NCBI GenBank assembly: GCA_016190055.1
Contig: JACPRH010000028.1
Location: 1-64,000 of the forward strand
DNA from: Nitrososphaerota archaeon
Lineage (GTDB): Archaea > Thermoproteota > Nitrososphaeria > Nitrososphaerales > JACPRH01
Direction of reading: 5' to 3'
DNA: 64,000 nucleotides
Positions 4,183 to 45,276 of this stretch are shown here, piece by piece. The translations under genes and the position numbers were made by a program. The first letter of the stretch is position 1; each line of letters begins with the position of its first letter. Below the pieces are notes generated by a model. That model had not been told where the DNA came from, searched no databases, and saw nothing but the letters and a program-made list of their open reading frames with translations.

Positions 4183-4656
4183 ATGGCCTTGAGTCGAATT
4201 CAAATTAATCCTATTGGTGCGGTCAGATCCATTTTTGGTTCAGACTCGGGTGATAAGTGGAGCATAGTTGCTGAACTGGTTCTCGACAAGTCGTATGTTG
4301 AAGGTTTAGAGGGTATTGAAGACTATTCTCACATCATTGTGCTCTTCTGGATGGACAAGATTGTCGCTGAAGACCGGACAGTGATGAGGATTCACCCGCG
4401 GGGGATGAATGATTTGCCGGAGGTGGGTGTTTTTGCTACACGTGGCAGAGCTAGACCAAACCCGATCGGCTTAGCCGTCGTGGAGCTGCTCGGTAGAGAT
4501 GGGAACACATTGAAGGTTCGGGGACTAGATGCTTTTGACGGCAGTCCAATTCTGGATATCAAGCCGTACGATAGTTATGATGTGAAGCAGAATATTCGTG
4601 TTCCCGGCTGGTGGCTGAAGATGACCAGTCAAAAACATGCTAAACACGAAGAATAG
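4183..4656 (+). CDS. trmO: TrmO-type tRNA (N6-threonylcarbamoyladenosine37) methyltransferase, TsaA fold
   Basis: A 157-residue protein of the TsaA/UPF0066 family. The signature RGRARPNPIGLAVVELL and the later LDAFDGSPILDIKPY segment are both present. Known members use S-adenosylmethionine to N6-methylate t6A at position 37 of some tRNAs; archaeal members are short single-domain versions like this one. The ATG at 4183 agrees with the family N-terminus (IQINPIGAVRS). It stands alone, 60 bases downstream of the nucleoside hydrolase gene. Confidence 0.85.
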   Translation: MALSRIQINPIGAVRSIFGSDSGDKWSIVAELVLDKSYVEGLEGIEDYSHIIVLFWMDKIVAEDRTVMRIHPRGMNDLPEVGVFATRGRARPNPIGLAVVELLGRDGNTLKVRGLDAFDGSPILDIKPYDSYDVKQNIRVPGWWLKMTSQKHAKHEE

Positions 4657-5381: not shown

Positions 5382-5400
5382 GTAACACGTAGTATTCTTG

Positions 5401-6495: not shown

Positions 6496-6664
6496 TTTCT
6501 TCGGGAAAGGTCTCGATCTCAAATTCGAAGGCTGTAGTTTTTTTAGCTACGAGACCGAGAAGTTCAGTTAACATGTTCCCTAGATACGTTTTGTCCGCCC
6601 AGTTGCAAGTAGGTTTGAACGAAACCTTGAAGCTGACAGAAGGTTGCTGCTGCTTCTCTTCCAA
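6479..6664 (-). CDS. Small protein upstream of and overlapping the radical SAM gene
   Basis: A 61-residue frame, rather polar with a hydrophobic middle, ending in an acidic tail. Its stop overlaps the start of the radical SAM gene by about 17 bases, the arrangement of translationally coupled genes. The segment between the divergent nucleotidase gene (6746) and the radical SAM gene has no other candidate. I do not recognise the family. It could equally be a chance frame over the leader of the radical SAM gene. Confidence 0.4.
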   Translation of the reverse strand: MEEKQQQPSVSFKVSFKPTCNWADKTYLGNMLTELLGLVAKKTTAFEFEIETFPEENGSKQ

Positions 6665-6745
6665 CGGGAACCGCGTATGACTGGGTGTTGGCTTGATATA
6701 ACTTTTAAGCCTAGTAACGCTTGAATCTTAGTATCGTAAAGAAAG

Positions 6746-7306
6746 ATGAAGATCGCTTTAGATGTAGATAGTGTACTGGCAGACGTCATCGTTACTTGGC
6801 TAGACGTCTACAGGGAGTCCTCAGGTCGTTCTCTGAAGAAGGCTGATGTGAACACCTGGAACTTCTGGAAAACCTTAGGTTTGACGCGGAAGCAGTTTGA
6901 AGATATCTTCACAGAGGCGTGGGTTCGATGGGAAAGGATCCCGCCGACAGAGAACAACCTAGCTGGAACAGTGAAGCGTCTCAGGCGGCTCCACACAGTT
7001 GACATTGTGACCGGCAGAACGCTCAACACCGTTCCCGACGTCAAGAAGTGGTTGAGCTGGCAGAACATAGACTACGAGCAGTTCGTCCGCGTACCCACAT
7101 ACACACTCAAAAGCAGTCTTGAGTACGACATCTTCATCGACGACTCGCCTCTAAACATTGTAGGCGCAGCAGACAAAAACCGCCACTCCATCCTTTATGA
7201 TCAACCTTGGAACCAAGACATGGAGCCGCACCCAGTTATCTACCGAGTCAAGAGTCTAGTAGAAGCTGCAGACATAGTCGAAAAACTGACTCCCCAAAAA
7301 CCGTAG
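6746..7306 (+). CDS. HAD-superfamily 5'(3')-deoxyribonucleotidase-like phosphatase
   Basis: A 186-residue HAD protein. It begins MKIALDVDSVLAD, the DxDxxxxD nucleophile motif with D6 and D8, has the TGR motif of the second HAD box in the middle, and ends with FIDDSPLNI, the acidic Mg-binding box. The short helical cap after motif I is that of the NT5C/5'-nucleotidase group (cytosolic deoxyribonucleotidases). It probably dephosphorylates small nucleotides. Divergent from the small frame and radical SAM gene. Confidence 0.8.
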   Translation: MKIALDVDSVLADVIVTWLDVYRESSGRSLKKADVNTWNFWKTLGLTRKQFEDIFTEAWVRWERIPPTENNLAGTVKRLRRLHTVDIVTGRTLNTVPDVKKWLSWQNIDYEQFVRVPTYTLKSSLEYDIFIDDSPLNIVGAADKNRHSILYDQPWNQDMEPHPVIYRVKSLVEAADIVEKLTPQKP

Positions 7307-7377
7307 AGTAGAAGCGGCATAATCTCTTTAAGCCCTCGGGTGTGAAGAAGAGGAAGCCGAAGCATGATGATTGATCC

Positions 7378-8697
7378 TTGGCTTCCATAACTCTCTATGA
7401 CGGCGTCGACCAGATAGGCGGCAACAAGTTCCTAATCCAGGATCACGGTACGAAGATTTTTCTCGACTTCGGAATGTCATTCGGCTCAAGAAGCAAATTC
7501 TACGATCCTCCCTTTCTTTCTCCGCGAAGCTGCAACGGGTTGCTGGAGCTCGGTGTGCTGCCGAAGGTGAACGGAACCTATCGTTTTGACGACTCTGAGA
7601 CGGAGATAGATGGCGTAATACTTTCTCACGCGCATCTGGATCACTCTGGCTACATCTCCTTCCTGAAGCGGGATATCCCGGTTTACTGCGGCGAGACGAC
7701 AGCTACGATACTGAAAGGTTTGAGTGAGATGCGAGCCCCTAGCTTTGAGCAGGACTTTAGCGACATTGAATTCAGGACATTCAGGACTGGTGATAAGGTG
7801 AGGATAGGTTCAATCGAGCTGGAACCTATACATGTGGATCACTCGGTTGCTGGTGCCTACGGCTTCAATATTCACACCTCCAGCGGCACCTTAGCTTACA
7901 CCGGGGATCTCAGGGTTCACGGTACCAAGAACAGTATGACGGAGGATTTCCGGAATCGTCTAGCCGAGGATCCGCCTGATTTGATGCTCTGCGAAGGCAC
8001 TAACACCACCGGCGCGACCGTTTCAACCGAGGCTGAGGTGGCTTCGAAGCTGGACGCTATCACACGTAGTGCACGGGGGCTTGTAATGGCTGACTTTTCG
8101 CGAACTGATATTGACCGGCTCAGATCCTTTATTCAAGCAGCTTCGAATAACGGGCGGAAACTAGCTATTTCGATGCGGCAGGCGTATTTGCTGAGCCTGT
8201 TGAAGAATGATCCGCACCTCGATGTTCCCGACATCGGCGGCGAGGATATCCTGATTTTCCGGAAGAACAAGAAGCGGTACATGAAGTGGGAGCAGACCCT
8301 ACTCGACCTTCCAAACATAACTGATTCATCGCTGGTCGCAGCTATGCAGAACAAGGTGGTTTTGGCCGCCTCCTTCTACGACTTTGAGGAGCTTATCGAG
8401 ATAGATCCGGTGGCTGGAAGCGTCTTTGTACTCTCCACCTCAGAGCCGTTCAACGAGGAGATGCAGATCGATTTCGACCGGTTAACCGCTTGGCTGGATC
8501 ATTATGGTGTTCCCCAGTATCATGTGCACGTTTCAGGGCACATCATGCCGCTGCAGCTTCGAGAAATGCTTGAGCAGATATCGCCGAAGAAGATTTACCC
8601 AATCCATACGGAGAACCCTGATCTCTGCAGACGTTTCCTCAGCGGGTTGAAGAGCAAGGTCGTCCGACCTGAGAAGGCAAAGGAATACAACATCTAA
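7378..8697 (+). CDS. Metallo-beta-lactamase-fold hydrolase, RNase J/beta-CASP related
   Basis: A 439-residue MBL-fold enzyme. It has the metal motif HAHLDHSGY, then VDHSVAGAYGF (third His), TGDLRVHG (bridging Asp) and a C-terminal HVSGH ... KKIYPIHTENP segment, as in RNA-metabolising MBL (RMMBL) proteins. The region between resembles a beta-CASP domain. Likely a ribonuclease or related phosphodiesterase in the cytoplasm. The start is the TTG at 7378, which opens directly into the first beta strand (ASITLYDGVDQIGG); the ATG at 7363 is in another frame. Confidence 0.8.
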   Translation: MASITLYDGVDQIGGNKFLIQDHGTKIFLDFGMSFGSRSKFYDPPFLSPRSCNGLLELGVLPKVNGTYRFDDSETEIDGVILSHAHLDHSGYISFLKRDIPVYCGETTATILKGLSEMRAPSFEQDFSDIEFRTFRTGDKVRIGSIELEPIHVDHSVAGAYGFNIHTSSGTLAYTGDLRVHGTKNSMTEDFRNRLAEDPPDLMLCEGTNTTGATVSTEAEVASKLDAITRSARGLVMADFSRTDIDRLRSFIQAASNNGRKLAISMRQAYLLSLLKNDPHLDVPDIGGEDILIFRKNKKRYMKWEQTLLDLPNITDSSLVAAMQNKVVLAASFYDFEELIEIDPVAGSVFVLSTSEPFNEEMQIDFDRLTAWLDHYGVPQYHVHVSGHIMPLQLREMLEQISPKKIYPIHTENPDLCRRFLSGLKSKVVRPEKAKEYNI

Positions 8698-29215: not shown

Positions 29216-29956
29216 ATGAATAGTAGACAGTATTTACTAGCGGTGTTAATGTTGGCCGCAGGTCTCGCTATCGGCTATGCGGGCATGCAAATGGTAACTC
29301 CGCAGCAGATACCTGTTATTGCAACTTCTACTGCGACGACCACCTCTACCGTCATCACTACTTCTATTACCACAACTACTACTGCAATTACCGCTACTAC
29401 TACGTCTACCGCTACCACTATTGCTTCCACTATTACCACCACCACTGCCAGAGTTACTTCTACTGCGACGACCACCTCTACCGTCATCACTAACGTTACA
29501 GTTACCACTACGACTCAGGAGGTGATGCCTGCTGGAAATGTTATGCAGCTCCACCTTAACACTACAACTGTGTCGAGCGGAACGTGTAGGTGGTGTCATG
29601 ATGTAATCAGTGAAGTATCATTAAGACAGGATGAGGAGACTCCTCATTCTGCGCATTTATCATCAGATCTTCTTAAGATGGAGTGCAACACATGTCACAA
29701 TGTTGTTGACCTGAATGAAAAATCAGCTGCTTCCATTCGTAAGCAGGTAGACACTACTTTCTGCGCCAAATGTCACTCTTCATTCCCAAAGAAGATGGAT
29801 GATGCCTATCAAAAGATTGATTGTACAACCTGCCATTCGAATTGGAAGGATAGGATGGGGGCTGAAGCCGCGTCGTTTGTTAATATGGACTTGATACAGC
29901 CCAAGGATTGCCTTGGATGTCACGGGGGACGCGCATGGTATGTTGGAGGTGTCTAG
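29216..29956 (+). CDS. Pentaheme cytochrome c with threonine-rich stalk
   Basis: A 246-residue exported cytochrome. Residues 7-27 form a hydrophobic signal-anchor; residues 36-105 are a threonine/serine low-complexity stalk; then five CXXCH motifs begin at C124, C157, C183, C203 and C232. The stalk should lift the haem domain off the membrane or through a surface layer and is probably glycosylated. Its stop abuts the ATG of the Mo subunit (TAGATG), so it is the first gene of that operon and the likely electron partner of the exported enzyme, standing in for the missing NrfD-type membrane subunit. The haem domain resembles small NapB/class III-like cytochromes only loosely. Confidence 0.88.
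   Translation: MNSRQYLLAVLMLAAGLAIGYAGMQMVTPQQIPVIATSTATTTSTVITTSITTTTTAITATTTSTATTIASTITTTTARVTSTATTTSTVITNVTVTTTTQEVMPAGNVMQLHLNTTTVSSGTCRWCHDVISEVSLRQDEETPHSAHLSSDLLKMECNTCHNVVDLNEKSAASIRKQVDTTFCAKCHSSFPKKMDDAYQKIDCTTCHSNWKDRMGAEAASFVNMDLIQPKDCLGCHGGRAWYVGGV
29324..29492 (+). repeat. Threonine-codon low-complexity tract with an exact 37-base direct repeat
   Basis: Within the cytochrome stalk, 29324-29360 and 29456-29492 are identical over 37 bases, with degenerate ACN-rich units between. This shows recent growth of the stalk by slippage or unequal recombination. Confidence 0.8.
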
Positions 29957-32371
29957 ATGGACAAAGAAGAATCTAATTTGTCAAATGTGTCGATGAAAGG
30001 GAGAATTACGAGAAGAAAGTTCGTAAAGGGCTCAGCTGCTTTGGCCACTCTGGCTGCAGGAAGCGGCCTATTCGGAGTAAGCGCGTTCGAGGTATTACAA
30101 CCTATGCGGGCTCAGGCAGCGGGTCAAAACAACTGGACGTTGCAGGCTCAGGCATTAGGCCAAGACGAATGGATATACTCAGCATGCAATATGTGTGGTG
30201 GCCAGACAGGAATAGTGGCCCATGTGGTGGATGGTTCAGTTGTGAAGATAGAGCCAAATAGCTTCAACCCAGTGGGTGTTCACAACATCTCCACAGATTT
30301 TGAGGTCGAAAAAGTACGTGGCGGCCGGATGTGCTCTAAGGGAAATAGTGGAATAAAGTCCCTCTACGACCCTGACCGAATCAAGACACCTATGAAGAGA
30401 GTTGGGGCGAGGGGAGAAGGCCAATGGTTACCCATAACATGGGATGAAGCGATTAACGAAATATCTGTGAAGCTGAACGATATCAAAGCCAAGTATGGTG
30501 CAGAGTCCCTTGTATGGTTCGGAGAAGACCACTCGCTAGACACAGATCTTCAATCAGAGTTGTGCGCAGCCTACGGAACTCCCAACTATCATAACCACGC
30601 AAACCTCTGTGACGTGGCTAGAAAAGCATCGTACAAACTAACTATGGGTGATGAGCGACCGATAGGCGATTTTGCGCACGCAAAGTACATTCTGCTCTTC
30701 GGATGGAACCCACTTGACGCAACAAAGTGGGCTCATCTGCCCGCCATTATAATGGACGGGATAGAAAAGAACGGCGCAAAAATGGTTGTTATCGACCCTG
30801 TCTTCAGCAAGACTGCATCAAAGGCTCACGAATGGATCCCGATAAGGCCTGGAACTGATGGAGCTCTAGCTTTAGCAATGGGCAACGTAATCGTTAACGA
30901 GAAGCTGTATGACAGTGAATTCGTTAACACATGGACTGTAGGCTTTAACGAATACGCGGAATTCGTGAAGGATAAAACACCTGAGTGGGCGGAGAAAGTT
31001 ACGAGCGTACCTGCAGACACCATACGCAGGCTGGCAAGAGAGTTAGCAACCACGAAACCTGCCGCCATTGATGTATGGTCAGGGCCCGGGCAGCAGGCTA
31101 ACGGTACTGAAGGTGGAAGAGCTATCGTGATGCTCGCAGGGCTTCTTGGACAGGTTGACAAACCTGGAACAATGATGAACCCTGACCGGAAGGGCGGAAA
31201 GAAACGGGCAAACTTAGCTGACTGGCCAAAGATCACTGCGAAGAGGCTTGACGGTAGAGGTGAGAAATACCCGTTCGCTCACAGCTCCGGGATATATGTA
31301 GAGACACGCGACGCTATGTTAAGCGGACAACCGTATCAGGCGCGCGCCGCTGTCTTTGTAATGCAGAACTTCGTAATGTCTGTACCAAATGCGCAGAAGA
31401 ACATAGATGCCATAAAGAAAATGGAGTTTGTGGTCGCCGTGGACACACATATTAGCGAAACTGCGGATCTGGCAGACATAATAATTCCTGGGACGAACTA
31501 CCTCGAAAGATATGACATCACCAGTAACTGGGTAACCTTCCAGAGCCTTTCTCTGAGACAACCGGTTGTAAAGTCTTGGATTAACGGTCTAACTGAGACC
31601 GAGTTCTTCATGAGGTTAGCCACTAAAATGGGACTTAAAGGATTCGACATGCCTTATGAACAGTATCTCAGCGACAAAATAAAGGCCGGCATAGGTATAA
31701 CCCTTGATGAACTGAAACTCCTTCCAGGAGCTGTTTGGATTGGAAAAGGGACTACATATGAGAAGTTCAAGAGCAAAGTAACAGTACCAGACGGTGCTAC
31801 AACCGACCCCACTACCGGAGTTGTGAAGGACAAGGCTAATGCAGTAATCGGTGTCAACATAGGCGGAACGGTGATGAAAGGGTTCAATACGCCGTCGCGA
31901 AAGTTCGAGTTCTACTCCAATCAGATGAAGACTAAGGGGCTGAATCCGCTGCCGGACTATATGCCCACAGAGGATAGACCAAACGCTGAATACCCATACT
32001 ACTTCGTTTCATGGAAACCGCAGGAACATACGCATACAAGGACACAAAACAACGTCTGGCTGGTTGAGATGCTTGGAAGCAATCCTATCTGGATAAACAC
32101 GAAGACAGCTGAGAAACTCGGTCTTGCAGAAGGCGATGACTCGTATATTGAGTCTTTGACTGGTAAAATAAAATCAAAGGTGCATGTAACGAACGAGGTC
32201 CATCCCGAGGTAGTGGCGTTTCCACGAGGATTTGGCCATTGGAGACTCGGAAACATCGCTAAGGGTAAAGGATCTCACGACGGCTGGATATTACCCGGCA
32301 AAGCCGAGAGGATATCGGGGATGGCTAGGAATAAGGAAGCTGCGGTCAGGATAATCAAGGTGGTATCTTAA
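29957..32371 (+). CDS. Tat-exported molybdopterin oxidoreductase, DMSO reductase family (operon 1 catalytic subunit)
   Basis: An 804-residue bis-MGD enzyme. It has a Tat signal (TRRKFVKG, residues 18-25, then a hydrophobic stretch), an N-terminal Fe-S region, the TWDEAI motif near 161, and the C-terminal MGD-binding end (HPEVVAFPRGFGHWR). The FS0 motif reads CNMCGGQT at 77-84, then C125: the third expected cysteine is a threonine, leaving three cysteines. C218 in NHANLCDVA is in the position of the Mo ligand, as in polysulfide, tetrathionate and arsenate reductase types. The partners are a four-cluster Fe-S subunit and a pentaheme cytochrome; no NrfD subunit is present. Substrate not determinable; the arsenic-rich context makes an As, S or Se oxyanion plausible. 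Confidence 0.88.
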   Translation: MDKEESNLSNVSMKGRITRRKFVKGSAALATLAAGSGLFGVSAFEVLQPMRAQAAGQNNWTLQAQALGQDEWIYSACNMCGGQTGIVAHVVDGSVVKIEPNSFNPVGVHNISTDFEVEKVRGGRMCSKGNSGIKSLYDPDRIKTPMKRVGARGEGQWLPITWDEAINEISVKLNDIKAKYGAESLVWFGEDHSLDTDLQSELCAAYGTPNYHNHANLCDVARKASYKLTMGDERPIGDFAHAKYILLFGWNPLDATKWAHLPAIIMDGIEKNGAKMVVIDPVFSKTASKAHEWIPIRPGTDGALALAMGNVIVNEKLYDSEFVNTWTVGFNEYAEFVKDKTPEWAEKVTSVPADTIRRLARELATTKPAAIDVWSGPGQQANGTEGGRAIVMLAGLLGQVDKPGTMMNPDRKGGKKRANLADWPKITAKRLDGRGEKYPFAHSSGIYVETRDAMLSGQPYQARAAVFVMQNFVMSVPNAQKNIDAIKKMEFVVAVDTHISETADLADIIIPGTNYLERYDITSNWVTFQSLSLRQPVVKSWINGLTETEFFMRLATKMGLKGFDMPYEQYLSDKIKAGIGITLDELKLLPGAVWIGKGTTYEKFKSKVTVPDGATTDPTTGVVKDKANAVIGVNIGGTVMKGFNTPSRKFEFYSNQMKTKGLNPLPDYMPTEDRPNAEYPYYFVSWKPQEHTHTRTQNNVWLVEMLGSNPIWINTKTAEKLGLAEGDDSYIESLTGKIKSKVHVTNEVHPEVVAFPRGFGHWRLGNIAKGKGSHDGWILPGKAERISGMARNKEAAVRIIKVVS

Positions 32372-32947
32372 ATGGTCGTAGATATCCCAACGGTTCCGAA
32401 AGAAAATCAGGTCGGTTGGCTGATAAACCTTGAACGGTGCGTTGGATGCAGAGCATGTGAAGGCGCATGCAAAAATGAGAACAAAGTCGCTGTAGGTGTC
32501 AGATGGAGACGCGTAGTGACGCGTCAAAAGGGAGAGTACCCATCACCAGTAAAATATTACGTCACAAGCGCATGCCACCACTGCGCGCAACCAGCATGTA
32601 TCAAATCCTGCCCAGTTGACGCGATTACAAAGCGCGCTAAGGACGGTATAGTCCTTATCGATCAGGAGAAGTGCATAGGGTGCAGACGTTGCATATGGGC
32701 CTGCCCATACGGGGCACCCCAGTACAATCCAGAGACGAATAAAGTTGAGAAGTGTACATATTGTGTTCACCGTATAGATAAGGGGCTGAAGCCCGCCTGT
32801 GCGTTAACCTGTATGGGTCTTGCCTTGGATAACAGGGCTCTGGCCGACATAGATAAAACACACGCGACAGCTTCCCAAGAGATCACAGGATTCAACCCCA
32901 CCTTTACAGAGCCTTCTACACGCTTCATTAAGGCGAAGAAGATGTAA
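32372..32947 (+). CDS. Four-cluster [4Fe-4S] electron-transfer subunit (DmsB/ArrB/TtrB type, operon 1)
   Basis: A 191-residue ferredoxin subunit with 16 cysteines arranged as four clusters: CVGCRACEGAC, CHHCAQPACIKSCP, CIGCRRCIWACP, and CTYC ... CALTC with 11 residues between. It has no signal of its own and should be carried out through Tat bound to the Mo subunit. The ATG follows the Mo subunit stop directly. It links the Mo centre to the cytochrome. Confidence 0.92.
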   Translation: MVVDIPTVPKENQVGWLINLERCVGCRACEGACKNENKVAVGVRWRRVVTRQKGEYPSPVKYYVTSACHHCAQPACIKSCPVDAITKRAKDGIVLIDQEKCIGCRRCIWACPYGAPQYNPETNKVEKCTYCVHRIDKGLKPACALTCMGLALDNRALADIDKTHATASQEITGFNPTFTEPSTRFIKAKKM

Positions 32948-32970
32948 CCATCCATTTCTGGTCGTTCCTA

Positions 32971-33657
32971 ATGCATGAAATATTGAGAGACCTTGAATTA
33001 AGAGGAGAAATCTACAATTTATTGAAGACTCTTTTTCTCAGGCCTCCTTCGAAAGATCTTCTCAACTATCTGAGAAAAATCGAAGACGTCAGAGACAGTG
33101 TGGCCACACCCGAAATAGCTAAAGGAATCGATCTCCTTAGAAAAGGAGCGAATATCTTGCCAGAGCGACTGGCTCTGGAGCATACACTTCTGTTTATCGG
33201 CCCCTACAGGCTTCCTGCGCCACCATACGAATCTGTATATCGAACGGCTGAGCGGCTCGTAATGCAGCAACCAACTAAAGAGGTGAGGCGAGCATATCGA
33301 GACGCAGGCCTCGAAGTTAAGGGAATCAGCACCAGTCCTGATGATCATGTATGCGCCGAGCTTGAGTTCATGCAACATCTCTGCGTCAAAACTGCCTCAT
33401 CTCTGAAGAAGAGAAAGCCTCATACGGCGATAAAACATCTTGAGTCACAAAGGAAGTTTCTTGATGAGCATTTGATTAATTGGGTGCCCGAGTTCTCCGA
33501 CGATATATTAAGGAACACCAAACAAGATTTTTACAAAGGCGTAGCATTACTACTATCTGGTTTCGTATCTTCTGAAAGAGAACACATCCCAGAAATAATC
33601 GAAGCGGTGAGGTGCGAATACTATGCTTCGCCAAGACGGTCAGTCTTCACTTCGTAA
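32971..33657 (+). CDS. TorD/DmsD-family maturation chaperone (operon 1, first)
   Basis: A 228-residue all-helical protein of the TorD family. The PPYESVYR motif near residue 88 and DDHVCAELEFMQHL in the middle are the conserved blocks. It should hold the Tat signal of the Mo subunit until the cofactor is inserted. It starts 23 bases after the Fe-S subunit gene. Two other TorD proteins occur in the window. Confidence 0.85.
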   Translation: MHEILRDLELRGEIYNLLKTLFLRPPSKDLLNYLRKIEDVRDSVATPEIAKGIDLLRKGANILPERLALEHTLLFIGPYRLPAPPYESVYRTAERLVMQQPTKEVRRAYRDAGLEVKGISTSPDDHVCAELEFMQHLCVKTASSLKKRKPHTAIKHLESQRKFLDEHLINWVPEFSDDILRNTKQDFYKGVALLLSGFVSSEREHIPEIIEAVRCEYYASPRRSVFTS

Positions 33658-34917: not shown

Positions 34918-36048
34918 ATGAATCTGGTAAGACAGTACAACCGGAAAGTTCAGAAGATTGGGCCCTCTAGTCTTGCGGTTGCACTGCCTCTTGAATGGGC
35001 TCGAGAGATGAGCGTTGACTCATCGTGTCATATCTTGATCGATTGGATGAGTGATGGCGCACTTAGCATATCCGCAAAGGCATCAATACTAGAGAGCAGG
35101 CCTAGCAACTGCGTCATTCCTGTCAACAGATTCTCTAATCCAAAACACATCTACAGGTCAATTGTCTCACTTTATCTCCACTGTGTTGATCAAATCATTC
35201 TCATCTCCCAAGATGATATGAGCGCGGAGTTTCTTTCCATCTTGCGGGCTGAATTGCGGAGGCTCCACGGTGTCGATATCATTTACAAGAGCCCTAGGAA
35301 GGTTATCATTCAATGCTTCCTAGATCAGACCAAATATCTATTCACCAGTCTTCAAAAGCGTCTTTACCAAGCCGCCGATGAATCTCTTGAACAGGCAATC
35401 TACTCACTAGAGCAAAATAAAGAATCTCCGAAAAAGGTTCTTGTGCTTGAAGATGAAGTTGATAGGCTATATTGGCTAGCGCTGAGACAGCTCCTCTTCT
35501 ATGCCGAAAGGCGTGACGTGGCGATTAAGATAGGAATGAGCGCCAGACATGTGGTCGACGCCCGACTCGCAATCAAGGTATTCAAAAAAATTGGTGACTA
35601 TTCCAAAGATATAGCCCTGAATATGACGGCTCTCAGCACGGCTCCCAGAACTTACCTGCCGGAGCGGCTCCTTGAATGGGCTAGGTCGATTAGAATGACC
35701 TTCAATAAGGCCGCAGATGCCTATTTCGCTGGAGATGTTGACCTCGCAAACACGGCGATCGAAGAATCGACGCAACTGGAAGCCGAGTTTCTAAAGATCG
35801 GTTCTCCAAGCGAAGTATTTGGGATTGCTTTGGCTGACGAAATGAGTAACGACGGAGTACGACATCTATTAGCAATCTACCGGATAATAGATGACTTGAT
35901 ACATGTTGCACGATCTAGCAATCCACTTGGTGAAGTAACAATCAACAGATGCTACGATCATTGCAACTGGTGCGACGCATCTGTAACATTATCTCTCCAT
36001 CATGAGCATGAGGTCAAGCAGCAACCCATTAGCGGAGCTCCTTACTGA
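34918..36048 (+). CDS. AbrB-PhoU fusion regulator with a C-terminal cysteine/histidine tail
   Basis: A 376-residue paralogue of the phosphate regulator at 23.0 kb. Residues 8-45 form the AbrB-type DNA-binding hairpin (VQKIGPSSLAVALPLEW), residues 125-340 the PhoU repeats. Unlike the other copy it ends with CYDHCNWCD and HHEHEVK, three cysteines and three histidines that could bind a metal or arsenite. It opens the sensing cluster before the PhnD-like protein, kinase and response regulator. Probably a regulator of the oxyanion operons; ligand unknown. Confidence 0.82.
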   Translation: MNLVRQYNRKVQKIGPSSLAVALPLEWAREMSVDSSCHILIDWMSDGALSISAKASILESRPSNCVIPVNRFSNPKHIYRSIVSLYLHCVDQIILISQDDMSAEFLSILRAELRRLHGVDIIYKSPRKVIIQCFLDQTKYLFTSLQKRLYQAADESLEQAIYSLEQNKESPKKVLVLEDEVDRLYWLALRQLLFYAERRDVAIKIGMSARHVVDARLAIKVFKKIGDYSKDIALNMTALSTAPRTYLPERLLEWARSIRMTFNKAADAYFAGDVDLANTAIEESTQLEAEFLKIGSPSEVFGIALADEMSNDGVRHLLAIYRIIDDLIHVARSSNPLGEVTINRCYDHCNWCDASVTLSLHHEHEVKQQPISGAPY

Positions 36049-36211: not shown

Positions 36212-37177
36212 ATGAGCTGTATGCGTACCGGGAAAAAGACGGTTATGTTCTTTGCGATACTGCTACTTCTAGTTCTATCCTTCGAGATAGCTAATGTATA
36301 CCTAAGAGCCGAGGAACCTTTGAAGGTCGATTTCAGGGAAAGAAGTAAATACATCGGCACAATCTCTGATTCGGCGACTGTCAGAATAGCTGTCGCGGCG
36401 ATTCTTTCACCAGAGGAAACCTCTCAGTTTTATCAGGATATGTTTGATTATGTTTCGGCGAGAATTGATGCTCCGGTTGAGCTTGTTCAAAGGAGGACCT
36501 ATCAGGAAGTCAACGATCTTGTAAGACGAAATAGTGTAGATGTTGCATTTGTATGCAGTTTGGCTTACGTCGAGGGACATCAGCAATTTGGTATGGAGCT
36601 CCTTGCCGTGCCGGTCGTGAAAGGCGCTCCGGTATACTACTCTTACATAATCGTGCCGAAGGATAGTCCAGCCACAAGTCTTCAAGATTTAAAGGGAAAA
36701 GTATTCGCCTACTCAGATCCGCTCTCAAACTCAGGCAAGCTTTCACCCGATTATCTACTGACCAAGATGGGATATAACCCTCTGAACTTTTTCGGGATGA
36801 CCTTCTTCACCTATAGCCACGATAAATCTATTCAGGCGGTAGCTGAGAAGATGGTTGATGGAGCTGCGGTGGATAGCTTGGTGTGGGACTACAAAAACGC
36901 TACTAATCCACAGTTCACTTCAAAGACTAAAATAATATCAAAGTCGCCACCGTACGGAATACCGCCTGTAGTAGTATCCAAGGATGTTGACCCCGTCTTA
37001 AAGGAAAAGATTCGAAAGGTCTTTCTCGAAATGCATGAGGACGCGGAGGGCCAAGCTATCCTGAAGCGTCTCAGCATAGATGGATTTGTTCAGGCGGATG
37101 ATCAAAAATACGATTCGATCAGGGAGATGAACAGCGTCGTCAAGGATGCTATCGAAGGCAGTAAACCGAATCAATAA
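36212..37177 (+). CDS. PhnD-like periplasmic oxyanion-binding sensor protein (AioX/ArxX or TtrS-sensor type)
   Basis: A 321-residue type-2 binding protein of the phosphonate/phosphite PhnD superfamily, with an N-terminal membrane anchor (residues 10-30). Typical blocks: VRIAVAAILSPEETSQFYQDM, YYSYIIVPKDSPATSLQDLKG and DGAAVDSLVWDY. There are no permease or ATPase genes nearby, and its end overlaps the kinase start by about 32 bases, so it is a sensor rather than a transporter component. Known parallels are AioX/ArxX/ArrX, which bind arsenic oxyanions for a sensor kinase, and the PhnD-like domain of the tetrathionate sensor TtrS. A TATA element (GTTATATAC, about 36163) is upstream. Confidence 0.82.
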   Translation: MSCMRTGKKTVMFFAILLLLVLSFEIANVYLRAEEPLKVDFRERSKYIGTISDSATVRIAVAAILSPEETSQFYQDMFDYVSARIDAPVELVQRRTYQEVNDLVRRNSVDVAFVCSLAYVEGHQQFGMELLAVPVVKGAPVYYSYIIVPKDSPATSLQDLKGKVFAYSDPLSNSGKLSPDYLLTKMGYNPLNFFGMTFFTYSHDKSIQAVAEKMVDGAAVDSLVWDYKNATNPQFTSKTKIISKSPPYGIPPVVVSKDVDPVLKEKIRKVFLEMHEDAEGQAILKRLSIDGFVQADDQKYDSIREMNSVVKDAIEGSKPNQ

Positions 37178-38906
37178 TATCATAGGCGGAGGTCTCACCA
37201 GGCGCTTCGTCTTCTGGATACTCGCGATTATCCTCCTTCTTGGAATATTGACCAATATTGTCGTCCAGACGAATCTGACGCAGACCCTATCCGACGAATT
37301 GAAAGACCGAGGCGAGATAATATCCAAGAATCTTGCTGCGAGTAGCGTGGAACCCGTGCTAGTCGACGACATGGTGACCTTACATCGACTCGTTGACAAA
37401 ATTAAAGCTACTGAAGATAATGTTCGCTACATCTACATTACCGATGGTAAAGGCCGGGTTTTAGCTCATACCTTTGACACCGGTTTTCCAGTGGGGCTGC
37501 TAGATATCTACAGGAACTTTGAAGGCGATTCTCGCCTTATAGACACAGGCGAGGATCGTGTAATCGATTTTCGTGCTCCTATATTGGAAGGTAACGCCGG
37601 GTTCGTCCATATTGGATTGGATGAGAGAATAATAACCGAGAAGGTGAGCGAGACAAGCAACTTGATCATTATCCTAGTGCTTATTGTAGGATCCGTAGGA
37701 GTTTTTCTAGCGTATATGGCTGGAAACTATCTAACAACGCCGCTTCGAGCTGTAGTCAAGGGAACTGAAGAGGTCGGTCGGGGAAACCTCGGATACCGGA
37801 TAGAGGTCGATACAACTGATGAGATATCTCATTTGGCAAATGCGTTTAATCAAATGTCACGCAACCTTGGAAGCAATATTGAGGATCTTCGAACGTCGGA
37901 AGAGCGGTATAAGCGGCTAGTAGACGGTATCAGCGACGCTGTGATACTAATAGATACTAAAAGGACGATCCTCTCATGGAACAGTGCCGCTGCAAAGATG
38001 TTCGGCTATAACTTCGAAGAGATGGTCGGCAAAGATACAAGCATTCTCTTCCACTCTTCAACTGATGGATGCAGATGCCAAGATGACGAGATGCTCGACG
38101 GGGAATCTCTTTTCGTTAAGCGCGGCGGCTCAACCTTCTCAGGTGTTGTACACTGCAAACCTTTGAAGGTTGACGATGAGGATGGGCATGTACTTGTTAT
38201 CAGAGATGTCTCTGAGCAAAAGGAGAAAGAGAAGCTTGAGAAGCAGCTTCTTCAGGCTGATAAATTGGCTACGTTAGGCACGCTCGCCGCTGGCGTCGCC
38301 CATGAAATTAACAATCCACTCGCCAATATCTCCCTATACTCTGAGATGGCGATGAAGCGGACATCTGACGGTAAATTAAGTGAGAAATTAAAGGTAATAA
38401 ACGAGGAAGCGAACAGAGCAGCTTTGATTGCTAAGGGTCTGCTTGATTTTGCTCATCAGCCCGAGATTAAGTCAGTCCCTACTGATGTTAATGAGGAGGT
38501 CAAGAAGGTGCTGAGTATCCTAGGCCCTGAGCTGAAAGGGATCGATGTAATCACAGATCTAGGCGCTATCCCTAGAATCTCAGCAGATAGCGGGCAAATT
38601 CAACAGGTCTTCATGAATCTTTTGACGAATTCAATACAGGCAGTGGGTGAGAACGGGGTAATTAGGGTCAAGACTGTTGTGAAACAGGGCAGTGTGGAGG
38701 TCAGATTTTCAGATAACGGGTGCGGTATTCCTCCAGAGAATCTCGGTAAGGTCTTTGATCCCTTCTTCACGACAAAATCTCCCGGCAAAGGAACAGGTCT
38801 TGGGCTCTCAATCTGCTACGGAATTGTTCAGCGGCACAATGGTTCTATTGATGTGGAGAGCGAAGTCGATGTTGGAACCACATTCACAGTGAGGTTGCCT
38901 ATCTGA
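37146..38906 (+). CDS. Membrane sensor histidine kinase with HAMP and PAS domains
   Basis: A 586-residue two-helix membrane kinase. Order: membrane helix at 21-42, extracytoplasmic sensor of about 130 residues, second helix near 175-198, HAMP, PAS ([18 protein letters not shown]), dimerisation/phosphoacceptor box [12 protein letters not shown] with H386, N-box [10 protein letters not shown] and G-boxes [12 protein letters not shown] and GKGTGLGLS. The catalytic half resembles bacterial AtoS/NtrB kinases, suggesting ancient transfer from bacteria. It overlaps the binding-protein gene and is followed directly by the response regulator, so the three form one signalling unit. Confidence 0.92.
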
Positions 38907-39539
38907 TTGAAGATTCTTGTAATTGAAGACGATCCGAAGATGCGTAGTGGATTGGTGGAGTTACTTTCGGAGGAAGGCTACGAAGTTGCTTCGGCCGAGA
39001 ACGGTCAAAGAGGCCTTGAGGCCGTTAAGAGTAATGATTACGATGTTGTGCTGACCGATTTGATTATGCCGGGGATAGGCGGGATGGATGTGCTGCGAGA
39101 AGCAAAGCGAATCAAGCCTAGATCCCATGTGATTCTGATAACCGCTTTTGCGACAGTGGAAAACGCTGTAGAAGCGATGAAGGCCGGGGCCTCGGACTAC
39201 ATCACAAAGCCGTTCAAAGTAGACGAGGTTCAGACAAAAATCCGAAAGGTCATTGCTGAAGCCGAGTTCGAACAACCTACGTCAATACTTGATTCTCATT
39301 TCTTCAAAGCTATCTCGAACCCTATTAGGAAGGATATTGTGAAGCTTCTTGATCGAGATAGACAGCTTAGGTTCACTGATATTAAGAATCAGCTCCATAT
39401 CGACGATCCCACTAAGCTTAGTTTCCACCTTCGAATCCTGAAATCCTACGGAATTGTTGAGCAAGACGTGGAGAAGGTTTACTCTCTTACGAATAATGGT
39501 AAAAATATTCTTGAAAAATTGAAAACTACAAATAGTTGA
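38907..39539 (+). CDS. Response regulator: receiver domain fused to ArsR-type winged helix
   Basis: A 210-residue protein. Residues 1-118 are a CheY-like receiver with acidic pair D8-D9, phosphoacceptor D51 (VLTDLIMPG) and K101, most like NtrC-type receivers. Residues 130-208 are an archaeal ArsR-like winged helix (FFKAISNPIRKDIVKLL ... LSFHLRILKSYGIV). There is no sigma-54 ATPase module. The TTG start follows the kinase stop with no gap. It probably binds the dyads just downstream, before the operon 2 catalytic gene, which would place bacterial signal input onto an archaeal promoter. Confidence 0.9.
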   Translation: MKILVIEDDPKMRSGLVELLSEEGYEVASAENGQRGLEAVKSNDYDVVLTDLIMPGIGGMDVLREAKRIKPRSHVILITAFATVENAVEAMKAGASDYITKPFKVDEVQTKIRKVIAEAEFEQPTSILDSHFFKAISNPIRKDIVKLLDRDRQLRFTDIKNQLHIDDPTKLSFHLRILKSYGIVEQDVEKVYSLTNNGKNILEKLKTTNS

Positions 39540-39630
39540 AACTTATTTCAACAAGACTTTGATAATTGAACTTTATTTCAAAAAAACCCTTTTTAATTTT
39601 ACTTGGTAGTGGCCATAGTGAGAGTAGGAT
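39536..39630 (+). promoter_or_regulatory. Promoter of operon 2 with two TTGAA-N6-TTCAA operators
   Basis: Two dyads of identical design: TTGAA-ACTTAT-TTCAA at 39536-39551 and TTGAA-CTTTAT-TTCAA at 39566-39581. Their centres are 30 bp apart, three helical turns. The first extends to GTTGAAA-N4-TTTCAAC. Immediately downstream a TATA-like TTTTAATTTT lies at 39591-39600, 31-40 bases before the ATG of the Mo subunit at 39631. This is the layout expected for cooperative activator binding. Confidence 0.7.
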
Positions 39631-42216
39631 ATGGCTCAACTAACTCGTCGTAGTTTCGTAAAGACTGCAGGTGCTGTAACAGTAGTAGGCGCTGCGAGTC
39701 TAAAACTGCTTGGTGCTGATGATCTTTTTATCGAGACATTAAAGCCAGTTCTTCCAAGAGCCAGTGGAAAACCGGAAATAACCGAAGAAATTGTGCATAC
39801 TACTTGCTGGATAGGTAAGCAGGACTGCAGTATTCTCGCCCATGTTGTAAACGGGCGCGTCGTGAAGCTTGAAGGTGATCCTGATAATCCTCGTAACAAA
39901 GGACGATTATGTCCAAAAGGTCAAGCCCAGATAATTTCGTTCTACGATCCATATCGGGTCAAAGCCCCACTCAGGAGAGTCAACGGTAAGGGCGTTCCAG
40001 GTGAATGGGTGGAAACATCGTGGGATGAAGCCTTAACGCTTGTCAGTGACAAGGTTAAGGAGGTTCGAGCTAAAGATAAGCGACTTCTGGTCTGGCAGAA
40101 AGGACGTAGCAAGGCAGAACCATTCTACGATAACGCATTTGTCCCAGCGTCAGGCGCAACTAAACTGCACCATGGTGCCTTCTGCTCAGACGCCGGTTAC
40201 CGTGCAAACGAGTACACAATCGGGTTTAACGGTGTTCTACATCCTGACTTCAATCATTGCAAGTATCTCCTGAACTGGGGTTGGAACATAGTTAACGCGG
40301 GTGGAAATAAGCTGTGTTGGATAACCTTCAACCAACAGTTACTTGACGCACGGGGACGAGGTATGAAGGTTGTCACGCTGGATCCTTGGAAGAGGGGTGC
40401 CGGTCCACATACAGATGAATGGTTACCTAACAAGCCTGGTAGCGATCTCGCATTCTTCTTGACTTTATCGAATGTACTCATTGAACGCGGATACGTTGAT
40501 GTGGATTATCTTAAGAAATACACCAACTCTCCATACCTAATTAAGAGCGACGGCTATCTTCTGAAGGTAGATGGTAAGGAGCAGGTTTGGGACACCGTCT
40601 CTAGCTCTGCCAAACCCTTCGATGCTGCCGGAGTTAACCCAGCACTGGAGGGTGAATATAGTGTGGGGAATGAGAAGGTCAAGCCGGCCTTCCAAGCCTT
40701 TAAGGAGCATATAGCGCAATACACACCTGAATGGGCTGAAGACATCTGCGGGCTACCTGCCGAAAGAATAAGGAAAGTTGGAGAAGAGCTTGGACAGAAT
40801 GCGATGATCGGCAGCAAGATAGTTCTAGACGGGGTTGAGCTGCCCTATCGCCCAGTAGGCATCGCAGCTTACCATGTAACTCAGCAGGAACTCGGTTTCC
40901 AAGCTTGCCGAGCCGCAATAATGGCATTCATGCTACTAGGCGCGATAGAAGCTGTTGGAGGTCTCCGATCAGACTTTGGAAGAAAAACTCACGGAAACTT
41001 CAAGAGTCTAGACGAAGTGCAGATCAAAGATCCTCCGTATAATATCTGGCTTCAGAACAGCAAGTACTTCCCGATAAACAGTAACAACTCATCGCTTGTA
41101 GCAAGAGTTTCCCAAGACCCAGGCAAATACGGCGTGGACTATACTCCTGAAGTATTGATGATACACATGTCAAATCCACTACTATCATTTGCGGATCAAA
41201 AGGCGCTTATGGAGTGGCTGGGCAAATTCAAGTTCACTGTGGTAATTGACCCGTGGATGAGCGAAACAGCAGACTACTATGCAGATGTAGTGCTTCCAGC
41301 AGCCACGATAGAAAAGTACGAGGGCCCCTCAAGTGTTAATGACGGATACAACGATGGTAGCGTAATACGAACGCCACCGATGCGGCCCCAATTCCAGTCT
41401 AGAGCTGACATCGACATCTACATCGATCTGTGCGAGAGGGCTGGGTTCCTCTACGGCAAGGATGGCTATATTGACAAGCTCAACGGTTCGCTAGGCTTGA
41501 AAGATCCGTACAAGATGGACTTGGATAAGAAACCTGATGCCAGAGATATCTTCGACCGCTGGGCCAAGTCCTCAGGCATCGGGGAAGGCGTAAAATACTT
41601 CGAGAATAAAACCGTAGCCAATCCAAAGAAGTTCGCAATCAAGGACCTCTACGCCCCTGCGTGGAACCCCCCCTACGGCGGGCTTAGGCACCGATTATAC
41701 GGTGAATCTCTCAAACGCTATGGAGAAGTGATGAAAGAAAAAGGTACCCCTGAGAACTTCAGGAGAGATTACACGCCGTTCCCAACTTGGAGAAGCCCCA
41801 CTATGGATAGCTCCCCATCAGAATACGATCTGTACCTTATCTCACATAAGAAAATTATGTTCAAGCAGTCTAGAAGCACCTCCAATCCCCTCCTTAAGGA
41901 ACTGGAACCAAATCAGTATCTTGAAATGAACCCCAAAGCTGCGGAGGCAAGAGGCATTAATGACGGCGATGAAATCGTGGTGGAATCTCAAAACGCCATC
42001 ACCAAAGAAACTCGACAGGTCAAGGTCAAAGTACAATATGCTGAAGGAATTAGACCGGATACCGTCTCAATGTCCCATCATTACGGGCACTGGGTAAATC
42101 CGAACGTCAAAGAGGTTGGACCTGCACCTAATACACTCTTCTTCAGCGGCGAAGGGTATGTGCAGATGACTGCGGATCAGTCATTCCAAGTAAAAGTGAG
42201 GGTAACCAAAGCATAG
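39631..42216 (+). CDS. Tat-exported molybdopterin oxidoreductase, arsenate/polysulfide reductase-like (operon 2 catalytic subunit)
   Basis: An 861-residue bis-MGD enzyme, close in length to respiratory arsenate reductase ArrA (about 850) and shorter than TtrA (about 1020). Tat signal TRRSFVKTAG at 5-14. The FS0 region is C59-x2-G62-x3-C66-x27-C94: the spacing is normal, but the second ligand is glycine. RLCPKGQ, WVETSWDEAL and a candidate Mo ligand C185 (HHGAFCSDAGY) follow; the C-terminus has the MGD-binding NPKAAEARGINDGDEI and HHYGHWVNP. Next to ABC-type partners (Fe-S, NrfD) and an AioX-like sensing module, and 7 kb from ars genes. Arsenate reductase or arsenite oxidase is my preferred role, tetrathionate/polysulfide the alternative. 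Confidence 0.88.
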   Translation: MAQLTRRSFVKTAGAVTVVGAASLKLLGADDLFIETLKPVLPRASGKPEITEEIVHTTCWIGKQDCSILAHVVNGRVVKLEGDPDNPRNKGRLCPKGQAQIISFYDPYRVKAPLRRVNGKGVPGEWVETSWDEALTLVSDKVKEVRAKDKRLLVWQKGRSKAEPFYDNAFVPASGATKLHHGAFCSDAGYRANEYTIGFNGVLHPDFNHCKYLLNWGWNIVNAGGNKLCWITFNQQLLDARGRGMKVVTLDPWKRGAGPHTDEWLPNKPGSDLAFFLTLSNVLIERGYVDVDYLKKYTNSPYLIKSDGYLLKVDGKEQVWDTVSSSAKPFDAAGVNPALEGEYSVGNEKVKPAFQAFKEHIAQYTPEWAEDICGLPAERIRKVGEELGQNAMIGSKIVLDGVELPYRPVGIAAYHVTQQELGFQACRAAIMAFMLLGAIEAVGGLRSDFGRKTHGNFKSLDEVQIKDPPYNIWLQNSKYFPINSNNSSLVARVSQDPGKYGVDYTPEVLMIHMSNPLLSFADQKALMEWLGKFKFTVVIDPWMSETADYYADVVLPAATIEKYEGPSSVNDGYNDGSVIRTPPMRPQFQSRADIDIYIDLCERAGFLYGKDGYIDKLNGSLGLKDPYKMDLDKKPDARDIFDRWAKSSGIGEGVKYFENKTVANPKKFAIKDLYAPAWNPPYGGLRHRLYGESLKRYGEVMKEKGTPENFRRDYTPFPTWRSPTMDSSPSEYDLYLISHKKIMFKQSRSTSNPLLKELEPNQYLEMNPKAAEARGINDGDEIVVESQNAITKETRQVKVKVQYAEGIRPDTVSMSHHYGHWVNPNVKEVGPAPNTLFFSGEGYVQMTADQSFQVKVRVTKA

Positions 42217-42226
42217 GTGAATTGAG

Positions 42227-42985
42227 ATGGTCAAGTACGCGATGGCTATAGATCTGGATAGATGCATGGGTTGCCGCGCCTGCATGGAAGCCTGTAAAAT
42301 AGAGAACAACACTGGACGAAACATTTTCTGGATGTTCGTGTTCAAACAGGAGAGCGGCGAATACCCGAACACAACCACAAATTACATGCCTAGACCGTGC
42401 ATGCACTGTGACAACGCTCCGTGTGTAAAGGTGTGCCCAGTTGGAGCAAGATTCAAGAGCGAAACTGGAGCAGTTCTTACAGATTTCGACCGGTGCGTAG
42501 GTTGCAGGTATTGCGAAGTCTCCTGCCCGTACGGTGTAAACTACTTCAACTGGAGAGAACCCGCTGATAACCAGTATTATCATTGGGGGAAAGGCGAAGC
42601 TGAAGGAAAATATGGAACGGCTGACATAAGGACTCTAGCAAATGGATCGATATCGCCTTACAGAAATCCAACTCTTGATGAACCGCATGGCGCAGAGAAA
42701 AGGACAGTTGCCGGCGGCGGACATTACGTGGGGGTTATCGAAAAGTGCACGTTCTGTGTTCAACGAACAGATAAAGGATTAGACCCCGCTTGCGTGGCCA
42801 ATTGCCCAGTCTCAGTATATACCTTCGGAGATCTCGACGACCCTAACAGCAGCATATCAAAGCTCTTGGCAAGCAGGTCTTCGTTCAGACTGCTGGAGGA
42901 GACAAACACTCACCCTAGAGTTTACTACTTAGGTACTCCGATGCCGCTTGAGCATAGGAAGCATCTGGAGAACATCTCAGTTTGA
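42227..42985 (+). CDS. Four-cluster [4Fe-4S] subunit (ArrB/PsrB/TtrB type, operon 2)
   Basis: A 252-residue electron-transfer subunit with all 16 ligands: CMGCRACMEAC, CMHCDNAPCVKVCP, CVGCRYCEVSCP, and CTFC ... CVANCP with 11 residues between. A 60-residue insertion between the third and fourth motifs is usual for Psr/Arr-type B subunits. It begins 10 bases after the Mo subunit gene and connects it to the NrfD subunit downstream. No signal peptide, so export should be by piggy-back on the Tat-exported A subunit. Confidence 0.92.
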   Translation: MVKYAMAIDLDRCMGCRACMEACKIENNTGRNIFWMFVFKQESGEYPNTTTNYMPRPCMHCDNAPCVKVCPVGARFKSETGAVLTDFDRCVGCRYCEVSCPYGVNYFNWREPADNQYYHWGKGEAEGKYGTADIRTLANGSISPYRNPTLDEPHGAEKRTVAGGGHYVGVIEKCTFCVQRTDKGLDPACVANCPVSVYTFGDLDDPNSSISKLLASRSSFRLLEETNTHPRVYYLGTPMPLEHRKHLENISV

Positions 42986-43049: not shown

Positions 43050-44339
43050 ATGAGTAAAGAAGAATTAGGAGTTTACCTGAAACCGTTCAATCGTACTGGC
43101 GGAAAATTCTTAGCTTTAATCGCAGTACTTCTAGGCGCGATGGCACTTGGAGGTTATGCGCTGTATATCCAGTTTACCGAGGGGCATTATGTCTCCGGTA
43201 TGCGCGATGTAGGTGCAGGAGGCGCTGCGTGGGGCATCTATATCGGGATGCTAGTCTACTTCATCGGCATAAGTTACGCTGGCATATCGGTATCAGCCGC
43301 CGTTCGTCTTCTTAACCTTGAGAAGTACAAGCCCGTAGCACGTATGGGTGAACTTCTCACGATAATAGCACTGCTACTCGGCTCGCTCTTCATACTATTT
43401 GACTTAGGACAGCCGATAAGAGGTGTCATCAACATGTTCCAGTTCGGAAGACCAATGTCCCCCCTCTTCTTCACATTCAGCGTCATCGCTACCGGCTACC
43501 TCTGGTCAACCCTGATATTCATGTACATATCGGGTAGAAGAGACGCATCCATTATGAAGGCGAATGGCCTCGGGATAAAGCCTCTCTACACAGTGCTGTC
43601 AGGTGGATATGTGGACTCCCATAAGGCAAGGGAAAAGCATAACAAGGTTCTGAAGGCTCTCGCTGTAGCGATACTCCCGCTGCTAGTAATGGCTCACTCA
43701 TTCCTCGGCTTCGTCTTCGGGTTACAGGTAGGTAGACCCGGCTGGTACACGGCAATTCAGGCCCCAGCATTCGTCACACTAGCAGCCGCATCAGGCATCG
43801 GAGCATTAATCATAATCTCCCTAGTGATCCGACGCACCTATGGCCTGCAGCAAATACTGACTCAAGATATATTCAGAGGTCTCGGCAACTTCATGGGTGC
43901 AGCGACAGGCGTCTACATTTACATGATAATCAGCGAAATGTACGTGATGAAATACGCAGGACCTTCGGGAGAAGTATTGATAGCTGACTCGATGCTCTCA
44001 GGCCAGCTGGCACCGTACTTCTGGGCGGAAATCCTCTCTTTCATAGCGGCATTCCTCATAATCTTCGCAATGTTCGCTCGCAAGAGTTACAGCTTACTTG
44101 GTATTACAACATCGGCAGTTCTGGTGAACATCGGTGCACTACTTGCACGCAACATGATAATAATCCCATCACAAACTCTAGGTATGCAGCTGCCCTACGC
44201 TTTAGGATCTTACTTCCCGTCATGGATTGAGATCTCAGTTGTAGTGGGGCTCTTCGCACTCGGGGTCTTCCTCTACAGTATCTTCACAAAGATATTCCCA
44301 ATAATCGAGTTCCCAGAAGAAGTGCGAGGTGAGAGGTAA
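43050..44339 (+). CDS. NrfD/PsrC-type polytopic membrane subunit (operon 2)
   Basis: A 429-residue membrane protein with eight to ten hydrophobic helices. LFDLGQPIRGVINMFQF is the conserved NrfD/PsrC block (acidic residue plus LGxP...). It should anchor the A and B subunits and exchange electrons with the quinone pool. Residues 185-205 form a cytoplasmic or external polar loop (DSHKAREKHNKVLK). Its stop overlaps the ATG of a tiny membrane protein by one base. Confidence 0.92.
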   Translation: MSKEELGVYLKPFNRTGGKFLALIAVLLGAMALGGYALYIQFTEGHYVSGMRDVGAGGAAWGIYIGMLVYFIGISYAGISVSAAVRLLNLEKYKPVARMGELLTIIALLLGSLFILFDLGQPIRGVINMFQFGRPMSPLFFTFSVIATGYLWSTLIFMYISGRRDASIMKANGLGIKPLYTVLSGGYVDSHKAREKHNKVLKALAVAILPLLVMAHSFLGFVFGLQVGRPGWYTAIQAPAFVTLAAASGIGALIIISLVIRRTYGLQQILTQDIFRGLGNFMGAATGVYIYMIISEMYVMKYAGPSGEVLIADSMLSGQLAPYFWAEILSFIAAFLIIFAMFARKSYSLLGITTSAVLVNIGALLARNMIIIPSQTLGMQLPYALGSYFPSWIEISVVVGLFALGVFLYSIFTKIFPIIEFPEEVRGER

Positions 44340-44559: not shown

Positions 44560-45276
44560 ATGTCTATAGTTAAGGATTCACTGTCAAAAAAGACTTTAAG
44601 CGACGAGATGGATCTCGCTAATCTAGCTAATACTCGTAGACAGGTCTACAAGCTTCTCAGCACAATGTACCTGCGATCCCCTGACAAAAAAGTTACGCGA
44701 TCGCTTAGCCAATTTTTCTCCGAACCGAAGACCAGTGTCTTCCTAGAAAAAATACCGGAAAATGTGAGAAAAAGCTTTCTTAAAATAAGCTCTAGCATAA
44801 CGTCCAGTGGAGATGGCCAGAAATCGCTGCAAATTGACTTCACTAATCTGCTACGGGGGTTCAGACCAAATATTCCTCCGCTGCCGCCCTACGAATCTGT
44901 CTATAGAGGTGAAGATCGCACCTTCGGCGTCTCAACTTTCAACGTATCCTCTGAATACGCGAATGCAGACGTAAAGATCGCTGATGAATATCGGGGGGAA
45001 CCGCCTGACCATATAGGTATCGAGCTTGATTTCATGGCGCACCTTTGCAGGCTGGAAGCAAAAGCTTGGCATGAATGCGACTATGAGAAGTGCCTAGAGA
45101 TTTTGAAGCAAGAGACGCGGTTCCTTGAGGAGCACCTAATGATCTGGGTGTTCAACTTTTGCGACCAAATAAAGAATCACAGTCGAACTGACTTCTACAT
45201 AGGGTTAGCTGAAGCTACAGAAAACTGGGTCGATTTAGATTATGAGCAGATCAACGACATCAGCAAATCTTGGTAG
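44560..45276 (+). CDS. TorD-family chaperone of operon 2
   Basis: A 238-residue TorD protein with RRQVYKLLSTMYL, LPPYESVYRGE and EPPDHIGIELDFMAHL, the three conserved blocks. It should bind the twin-arginine leader of the 861-residue Mo subunit during cofactor insertion. Overlaps the polyferredoxin gene by 35 bases. Arr, Arx and Ttr-type clusters commonly carry such a chaperone. Confidence 0.87.
   Translation: MSIVKDSLSKKTLSDEMDLANLANTRRQVYKLLSTMYLRSPDKKVTRSLSQFFSEPKTSVFLEKIPENVRKSFLKISSSITSSGDGQKSLQIDFTNLLRGFRPNIPPLPPYESVYRGEDRTFGVSTFNVSSEYANADVKIADEYRGEPPDHIGIELDFMAHLCRLEAKAWHECDYEKCLEILKQETRFLEEHLMIWVFNFCDQIKNHSRTDFYIGLAEATENWVDLDYEQINDISKSW

Follow-up and report, generated by a model that had tools for sequence, protein, structure and literature searches.

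Do the two dyads lying between a response regulator gene and a molybdopterin oxidoreductase operon serve as operators of that regulator, and, if so, would they switch the operon on? The window (the whole 64-kb stretch of DNA analysed here) carries the following features around them:

36212 to 37177, + strand: periplasmic oxyanion-binding protein (SBP), ArrX/AioX-like (PF12974; PDB ArrX 6x6b, E=2e-64; AioX, E~4e-45)
37146 to 38906, + strand: sensor histidine kinase (single Cache, HAMP, PAS, HisKA, HATPase)
38907 to 39539, + strand: response regulator, proposed dyad binder; receiver plus winged helix (DUF7347/HTH_20/ArsR HTH_5), 210 aa, TTG start
39535 to 39552, no strand: dyad 1, GTTGAAACTTATTTCAAC, with 7-bp arms and the response regulator stop codon within its left half-site
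39565 to 39582, no strand: dyad 2, ATTGAACTTTATTTCAAA, adjoining the BRE/TATA
39581 to 39599, + strand: BRE-like AAAAAACCC (39581 to 39589) and TATA-like TTTTTAATTT (39590 to 39599), assigned from sequence
39631 to 42216, + strand: predicted regulated gene 1, molybdopterin oxidoreductase catalytic subunit (PsrA/PhsA and ArrA relatives)
42227 to 42985, + strand: predicted regulated gene 2, 4Fe-4S subunit
43050 to 44339, + strand: predicted regulated gene 3, NrfD/PsrC-type membrane subunit
44560 to 45276, + strand: TorD/NarJ-type chaperone (PF02613), probably in the same operon

The paired dyads in their genome

The preliminary description had reported two dyads with the same half-sites and spacer length, and we confirmed that both are perfect TTGAA-N6-TTCAA repeats (TTGAAACTTATTTCAA at 39536 to 39551 and TTGAACTTTATTTCAA at 39566 to 39581), with no further exact match in the 64-kb window. 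The offset of exactly 30 bp, also claimed, is correct for the window, but in the relatives considered below the spacing ranges from 28 to 32 bp, mostly 29 to 31 bp. Dyad 1 overlaps the regulator stop codon (TGA, 39537 to 39539). Directly 3' of dyad 2 follow the BRE-like AAAAAACCC and, as had been described, a TATA-like element, TTTTTAATTT, and then the ATG of the molybdopterin oxidoreductase gene at 39631; dyad 2 not only abuts the BRE-like element but slightly overlaps it. The placement of BRE and TATA with respect to the last dyad is the same in the aligned promoters of the relatives, while the TATA element of the window, TTTTTAAT, is weaker than their TTTTATAT.

In 20,000 dinucleotide shuffles of the region 39500 to 39630, an exact dyad occurred in 0.17% and two dyads in none. 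The 2.21-Mb genome contains 15 exact single sites, compared to 2 for the reversed control; of the 13 outside the locus, none of which forms a pair, 12 fall inside open reading frames (ORFs) and 1 lies between genes. Single sites are therefore largely background, and what carries the signal is the pair. In a scan of 398 genomes from the phylum, the exact pair (0 mismatches) occurs once, and a pair with at most one mismatch in 3; in the same-genus genome G001, neither the regulator nor the sites were found. The genome-wide search that had been proposed earlier thus found the pair to be unique in its own genome and yielded no regulon: a regulon built from single sites was ruled out, since 12 of the 13 exact sites elsewhere sit within ORFs. 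In this genome, the dyads appear to be the operator of one promoter. It is exceedingly improbable that the pair represents chance repeats in AT-rich intergenic DNA; the 15 single sites, mostly within ORFs, would fit such an origin, but the local and window shuffles, the scan of 398 genomes and the cross-phylum conservation contradict it, and the conservation refutes it for the predicted operator pair.

Elsewhere in the window, no dyad was found upstream of 36212, where autoregulation of the SBP promoter would place one. A second respiratory operon lies upstream (29216 to 33657; multi-haem cytochrome c, PhsA-like molybdoenzyme, DmsB-like protein and TorD), and the motif scan of the window found no dyads at this first molybdoenzyme operon, which is therefore probably under different control. 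Between TorD-like genes and the sensor operon, a PhoU-domain protein (34918 to 36048) is encoded, with an N-terminal stretch that looks AbrB-like by eye. As for the operon downstream of the dyads, its catalytic subunit scores under all curated NCBIfam cut-offs, ArrA included, and its best solved relatives are polysulfide/thiosulfate reductase, followed more weakly by Fdh and ArrA.

The regulator and its sensor genes

The residues of the receiver that correspond to the acidic pocket, the phospho-Asp, the Thr and the Lys (D8, D9, D51, T79 and K101) are invariant across nine orthologues, and the same holds for the recognition-helix sequence D-x-x-K-L-S-F-H-L-R. In the AlphaFold model, the receiver (1 to 122) is joined by a linker to a winged helix (about 130 to 209), which in structure comparison matches the folds of CadC, YodB, QsrR, CzrA and other ArsR/DUF24-type dimers; the HTH_5 score of 28.0 bits (cut-off 22) agrees with an ArsR-type winged-helix fold. 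Furthermore, the receiver is nearest to those of NtrC/AtoC, so that the protein appears to combine a receiver of bacterial type with an archaeal-style winged helix. It shares with the ArsR/SmtB and DUF24 (HxlR) proteins CadC, YodB and QsrR the predicted DNA-binding fold, the dimer type and, putatively, a dyad as DNA target. Different from them, it is fused to a receiver, is likely controlled by phosphorylation and contains no cysteine: the ArsR/SmtB cysteine metal-binding motif was not found among its 210 residues, and an ArsR-type metal site is therefore absent.

The genes for the SBP, the kinase and the regulator follow each other in this order from 36212 to 39539, overlapping or abutting. 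The SBP matches ArrX (6x6b) over 275 residues, with AioX next in PDB, and its cysteine (..FVC..) aligns with that of AioX/ArrX (..WIC../..FIC..). ArrX and AioX are sensors of bacterial arsenic-oxyanion systems (PMC5908839). As in AioXSR, ArxXSR and ArrXSR, consecutive genes encode a periplasmic binding protein, a kinase and a regulator beside a molybdenum enzyme operon (PMC5908839), and the separate evolutionary histories of regulators and enzymes reported for bacteria (PMC5908839) recur here. In particular, an AioX/ArrX-type binding protein is present, with histidine kinase and response regulator genes as neighbours. However, in bacteria AioR and ArxR belong to the AtoC-type RpoN activators, and ArrR resembles CitB/FixJ (PMC5908839), whereas the regulator of the window combines its AtoC/NtrC-like receiver with an ArsR-fold winged helix and would act through operators at an archaeal BRE/TATA promoter; moreover, the enzyme of the window is not a curated ArrA or AioA. 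Since the output domain is of neither the AtoC/RpoN nor the CitB/FixJ type, the module is described here as a putative archaeal XSR-like variant and is not classed as an XSR member.

Dyad arrays beside related regulators

Full-length relatives of the regulator occur in Methanoperedens, in another archaeal phylum (60 to 70% identity), and, at 41 to 50% identity, in Hydrothermarchaeota, other Euryarchaeota and one family of the phylum of the window. In Methanoperedens, two to seven dyads with the core GAA-N6-TTC lie after or near the regulator gene, mostly 29 to 31 bp apart, and the last of them abuts the BRE/TATA. Two settings could be distinguished. Where SBP, kinase and regulator genes are followed by a molybdoenzyme operon, two to three dyads spaced by 30 to 32 bp follow the regulator stop codon, the last one against TATA boxes of the TTTTATAT type; in two loci (L035 and L036, regulator 70% identical), a 30-bp pair occupies the same place as in the window, and dyad 1 again holds the stop codon. 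In this setting, SBP, kinase and regulator are 55 to 70% identical to those of the window, while the enzymes share 26 to 30% identity with any molybdoenzyme of the window, the best match usually being the other window enzyme. Where kinase and regulator occur without an SBP, the kinase gene is preceded by arrays of as many as seven dyads; several genomes have a divergently oriented multi-haem cytochrome gene on the far side of the array. Extra pairs precede further multi-haem cytochrome genes of a cluster in G430 and G426; in G426, arrays that precede a multi-haem cytochrome gene are located on a different contig from the regulator gene. Sensor, regulator and predicted operator are conserved, while the putatively regulated enzyme differs; the inter-dyad spacers have diverged as well, which argues against mere recent copying.

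When a palindromic motif was derived from Methanoperedens promoters alone, with the window excluded and the training loci chosen via the regulator, it ranked dyad 2 first and dyad 1 second among all positions of the 64-kb window. Phased pairs, i.e., two dyads that each score 7 bits or more and are placed 29 to 32 bp apart, were found in none of 20 shuffles of the window and in none of 80 shuffles of Methanoperedens loci, and once in 670 kb of bacterial control loci. The same scan detected arrays in L155 and L156, both outside the training set; in such untrained arrays, strong spacings were limited to 28 to 31 bp and about twice that, in stretches preselected for a phased pair. Furthermore, profile R1, which covers the BRE/TATA together with the two dyads nearest to it and was built without the window, had its best match in the window's own genome at 39536 to 39592 (E=6.6e-5; next match, 0.29). 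Among 34 Methanoperedenaceae genomes, which share ancestry and are not independent, arrays (E<1e-5) occurred in 14 of the 16 with the regulator and in 2 of the 18 without it (Fisher p=1.4e-5). An array is also present in G418, as a partial profile match. In the two array-positive, regulator-negative genomes, the array lies near a contig end, and the contig stops at or before the expected position of the regulator. One further profile match (G408:C1:66247, E=1e-5) comprises one good and one weak dyad, about 100 bp before a 697-aa ORF.

Conservation in related genomes, which the preliminary description had named as a check, was therefore found, in that the pair is kept beside orthologous regulators in another phylum. 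A random distribution does not hold for the pair, which is unique in its own genome and tracks the regulator in the 34 Methanoperedenaceae genomes.

Among more distant relatives, a euryarchaeote (L042, regulator 48% identical) has, 3' of the regulator gene, a pair spaced by 29 bp that adjoins a TATA box. In the same locus, upstream of the kinase region (about 2390 to 2470), the dyads GAATTTTTCTTC and GAATTTTTTTTC lie 21 bp (two turns) apart, also against a TATA box. In L041, an exact pair 31 bp apart, which fails the AT-trained motif scan, lies upstream of the gene preceding the kinase gene. The phased-pair scan found no arrays in L006 to L008, L039, L040 and L043 to L047; thus, beside the distant regulators of 43 to 50% identity (Hydrothermarchaeota and others, L039 to L041 and L043 to L047), phased GAA-N6-TTC arrays are mostly absent nearby, with the recognition helix being the same. 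In L006 to L008 (family f13, same phylum as the window), a kinase-regulator pair (regulator 41 to 45% identical) directly precedes a gene for an FeS subunit, and these regulators may use a different operator. In L168 (G403:C18), a paralogous SBP-kinase-regulator set (5317 to 8190; regulator 41 to 42% identical) is located directly before the array-bearing set and after another molybdoenzyme operon; no dyads were found in its downstream region.

Proposed regulation of the molybdoenzyme operon

Very likely, the dyads are tandem operators of the receiver-winged-helix regulator encoded immediately upstream, through which the operon would probably be switched on. The earlier prediction of operators for this receiver-ArsR protein is supported by their conservation beside orthologues, their co-occurrence with the regulator and the ArsR/CadC/YodB fold. 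According to this model, the ArrX-like periplasmic protein would bind an oxyanion and stimulate the histidine kinase, which would phosphorylate D51 of the regulator. Regulator dimers would occupy the dyads, one per GAA-N6-TTC core and, at a spacing of three turns, on the same face of the DNA; the promoter-proximal dimer would touch the BRE and help to recruit TFB/TBP, and the molybdopterin oxidoreductase-FeS-NrfD-TorD operon would be switched on. We infer binding, cooperativity, phosphorylation dependence and the ligand. Activation is likely to prevail over repression, given that the arrays lie on the upstream side of the BRE and end immediately ahead of it.

Repression through the same regulator and sites, with dimers beside the BRE blocking TFB/TBP until a signal relieves them, is unlikely, even if the last dyad touches the BRE with a slight overlap, the solved structural neighbours with the ArsR/YodB/CadC fold are mostly repressors, and the L041 pair is close to a start codon, with an AT-rich candidate TATA upstream of the pair. 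Against it, arrays run outwards from the promoter over as many as seven dyads, and their inner end is immediately upstream of the BRE, a placement like that of archaeal activators; no Methanoperedens array is centred on the TATA or the start site. It is quite improbable that another transcription factor of these genomes binds the dyads and that the linkage to the regulator is coincidental: array presence follows the regulator gene across genomes, G001 of the same genus is without both, and the regulator gene is directly at the array in two phyla, whereas the lack of visible arrays near most of the distant regulators, which have the same recognition helix, would fit such a factor. A further reading would make the dyads RNA hairpins, or a transcription terminator, where the regulator operon ends; in its favour, dyad 1 could fold into a stem of 7 bp and a loop of 4 bases, and dyad 2 is followed by a stretch rich in T. 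However, the predicted folding (-6.8 kcal/mol, z -0.88) is not clearly better than that of shuffles, in other Methanoperedens loci such arrays are found upstream of genes, between divergent promoters, instead of at 3' ends, and neither a 30-bp periodicity nor a fixed distance to the TATA is required of terminators. We rejected a terminator or RNA element on the folding result and the array positions, and consider it very improbable.

Activation by the regulator from the dyads would recall TFB-RF1, an archaeal activator that, in the passages of PMC5937170 considered, recruits TFB from sites directly upstream of BRE/TATA; different from TFB-RF1 as presented there, the regulator of the window belongs to an unrelated family, would be under two-component control and has multi-dyad arrays. 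Archaeal pairs of histidine kinase and response regulator are represented by FilI-FilR (PMC3991700) and LtrK-LtrR (PMC4823666). In the passages considered, FilR1 binds promoters in vitro, and better once phosphorylated (PMC3991700), and LtrR has its HTH at the N terminus (PMC4823666); those passages define no operator for either, while for the present family sequence comparison defines a specific phased dyad array. Response regulators with a DNA-binding domain have been described as rare in archaea (PMC5847659), and in the open-access literature searched we found neither a defined operator for an archaeal DNA-binding response regulator nor any earlier account of the motif. Oxyanion three-component sensing and winged-helix regulators are each of a known kind; what that literature, as far as we searched it, does not describe is their combination, the defined operator and the fact that the operator is kept between phyla although the regulated enzymes differ.

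It is reasonably probable that oxyanion sensor, kinase, regulator and 30-bp-phased array form a portable archaeal module, which moves between phyla as a unit and keeps its operator, while the respiratory enzyme is swapped, and that the same code governs multi-haem cytochrome clusters of Methanoperedens, including targets unlinked to the regulator gene. Such a specific and testable DNA code for one archaeal response regulator family predicts which respiratory enzymes and cytochromes answer to one signal pathway; the predicted targets include likely extracellular-respiration genes of methane-oxidising archaea, which are hard to grow or to modify genetically.

Finally, the 5' leader of the Methanoperedens kinase operon, between the TATA box of the array and the kinase gene, contains a conserved hairpin (GCCTTTGCAG ... 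TGCAAAGGC) that has a T-run and a loop similar to CCTATCC (L037, about 4415 to 4520, L038, L154, L155, L156 and L159). It occurs in seven leaders from six loci, with one pair showing a compensatory change, and is possibly a regulatory RNA element or a small RNA.
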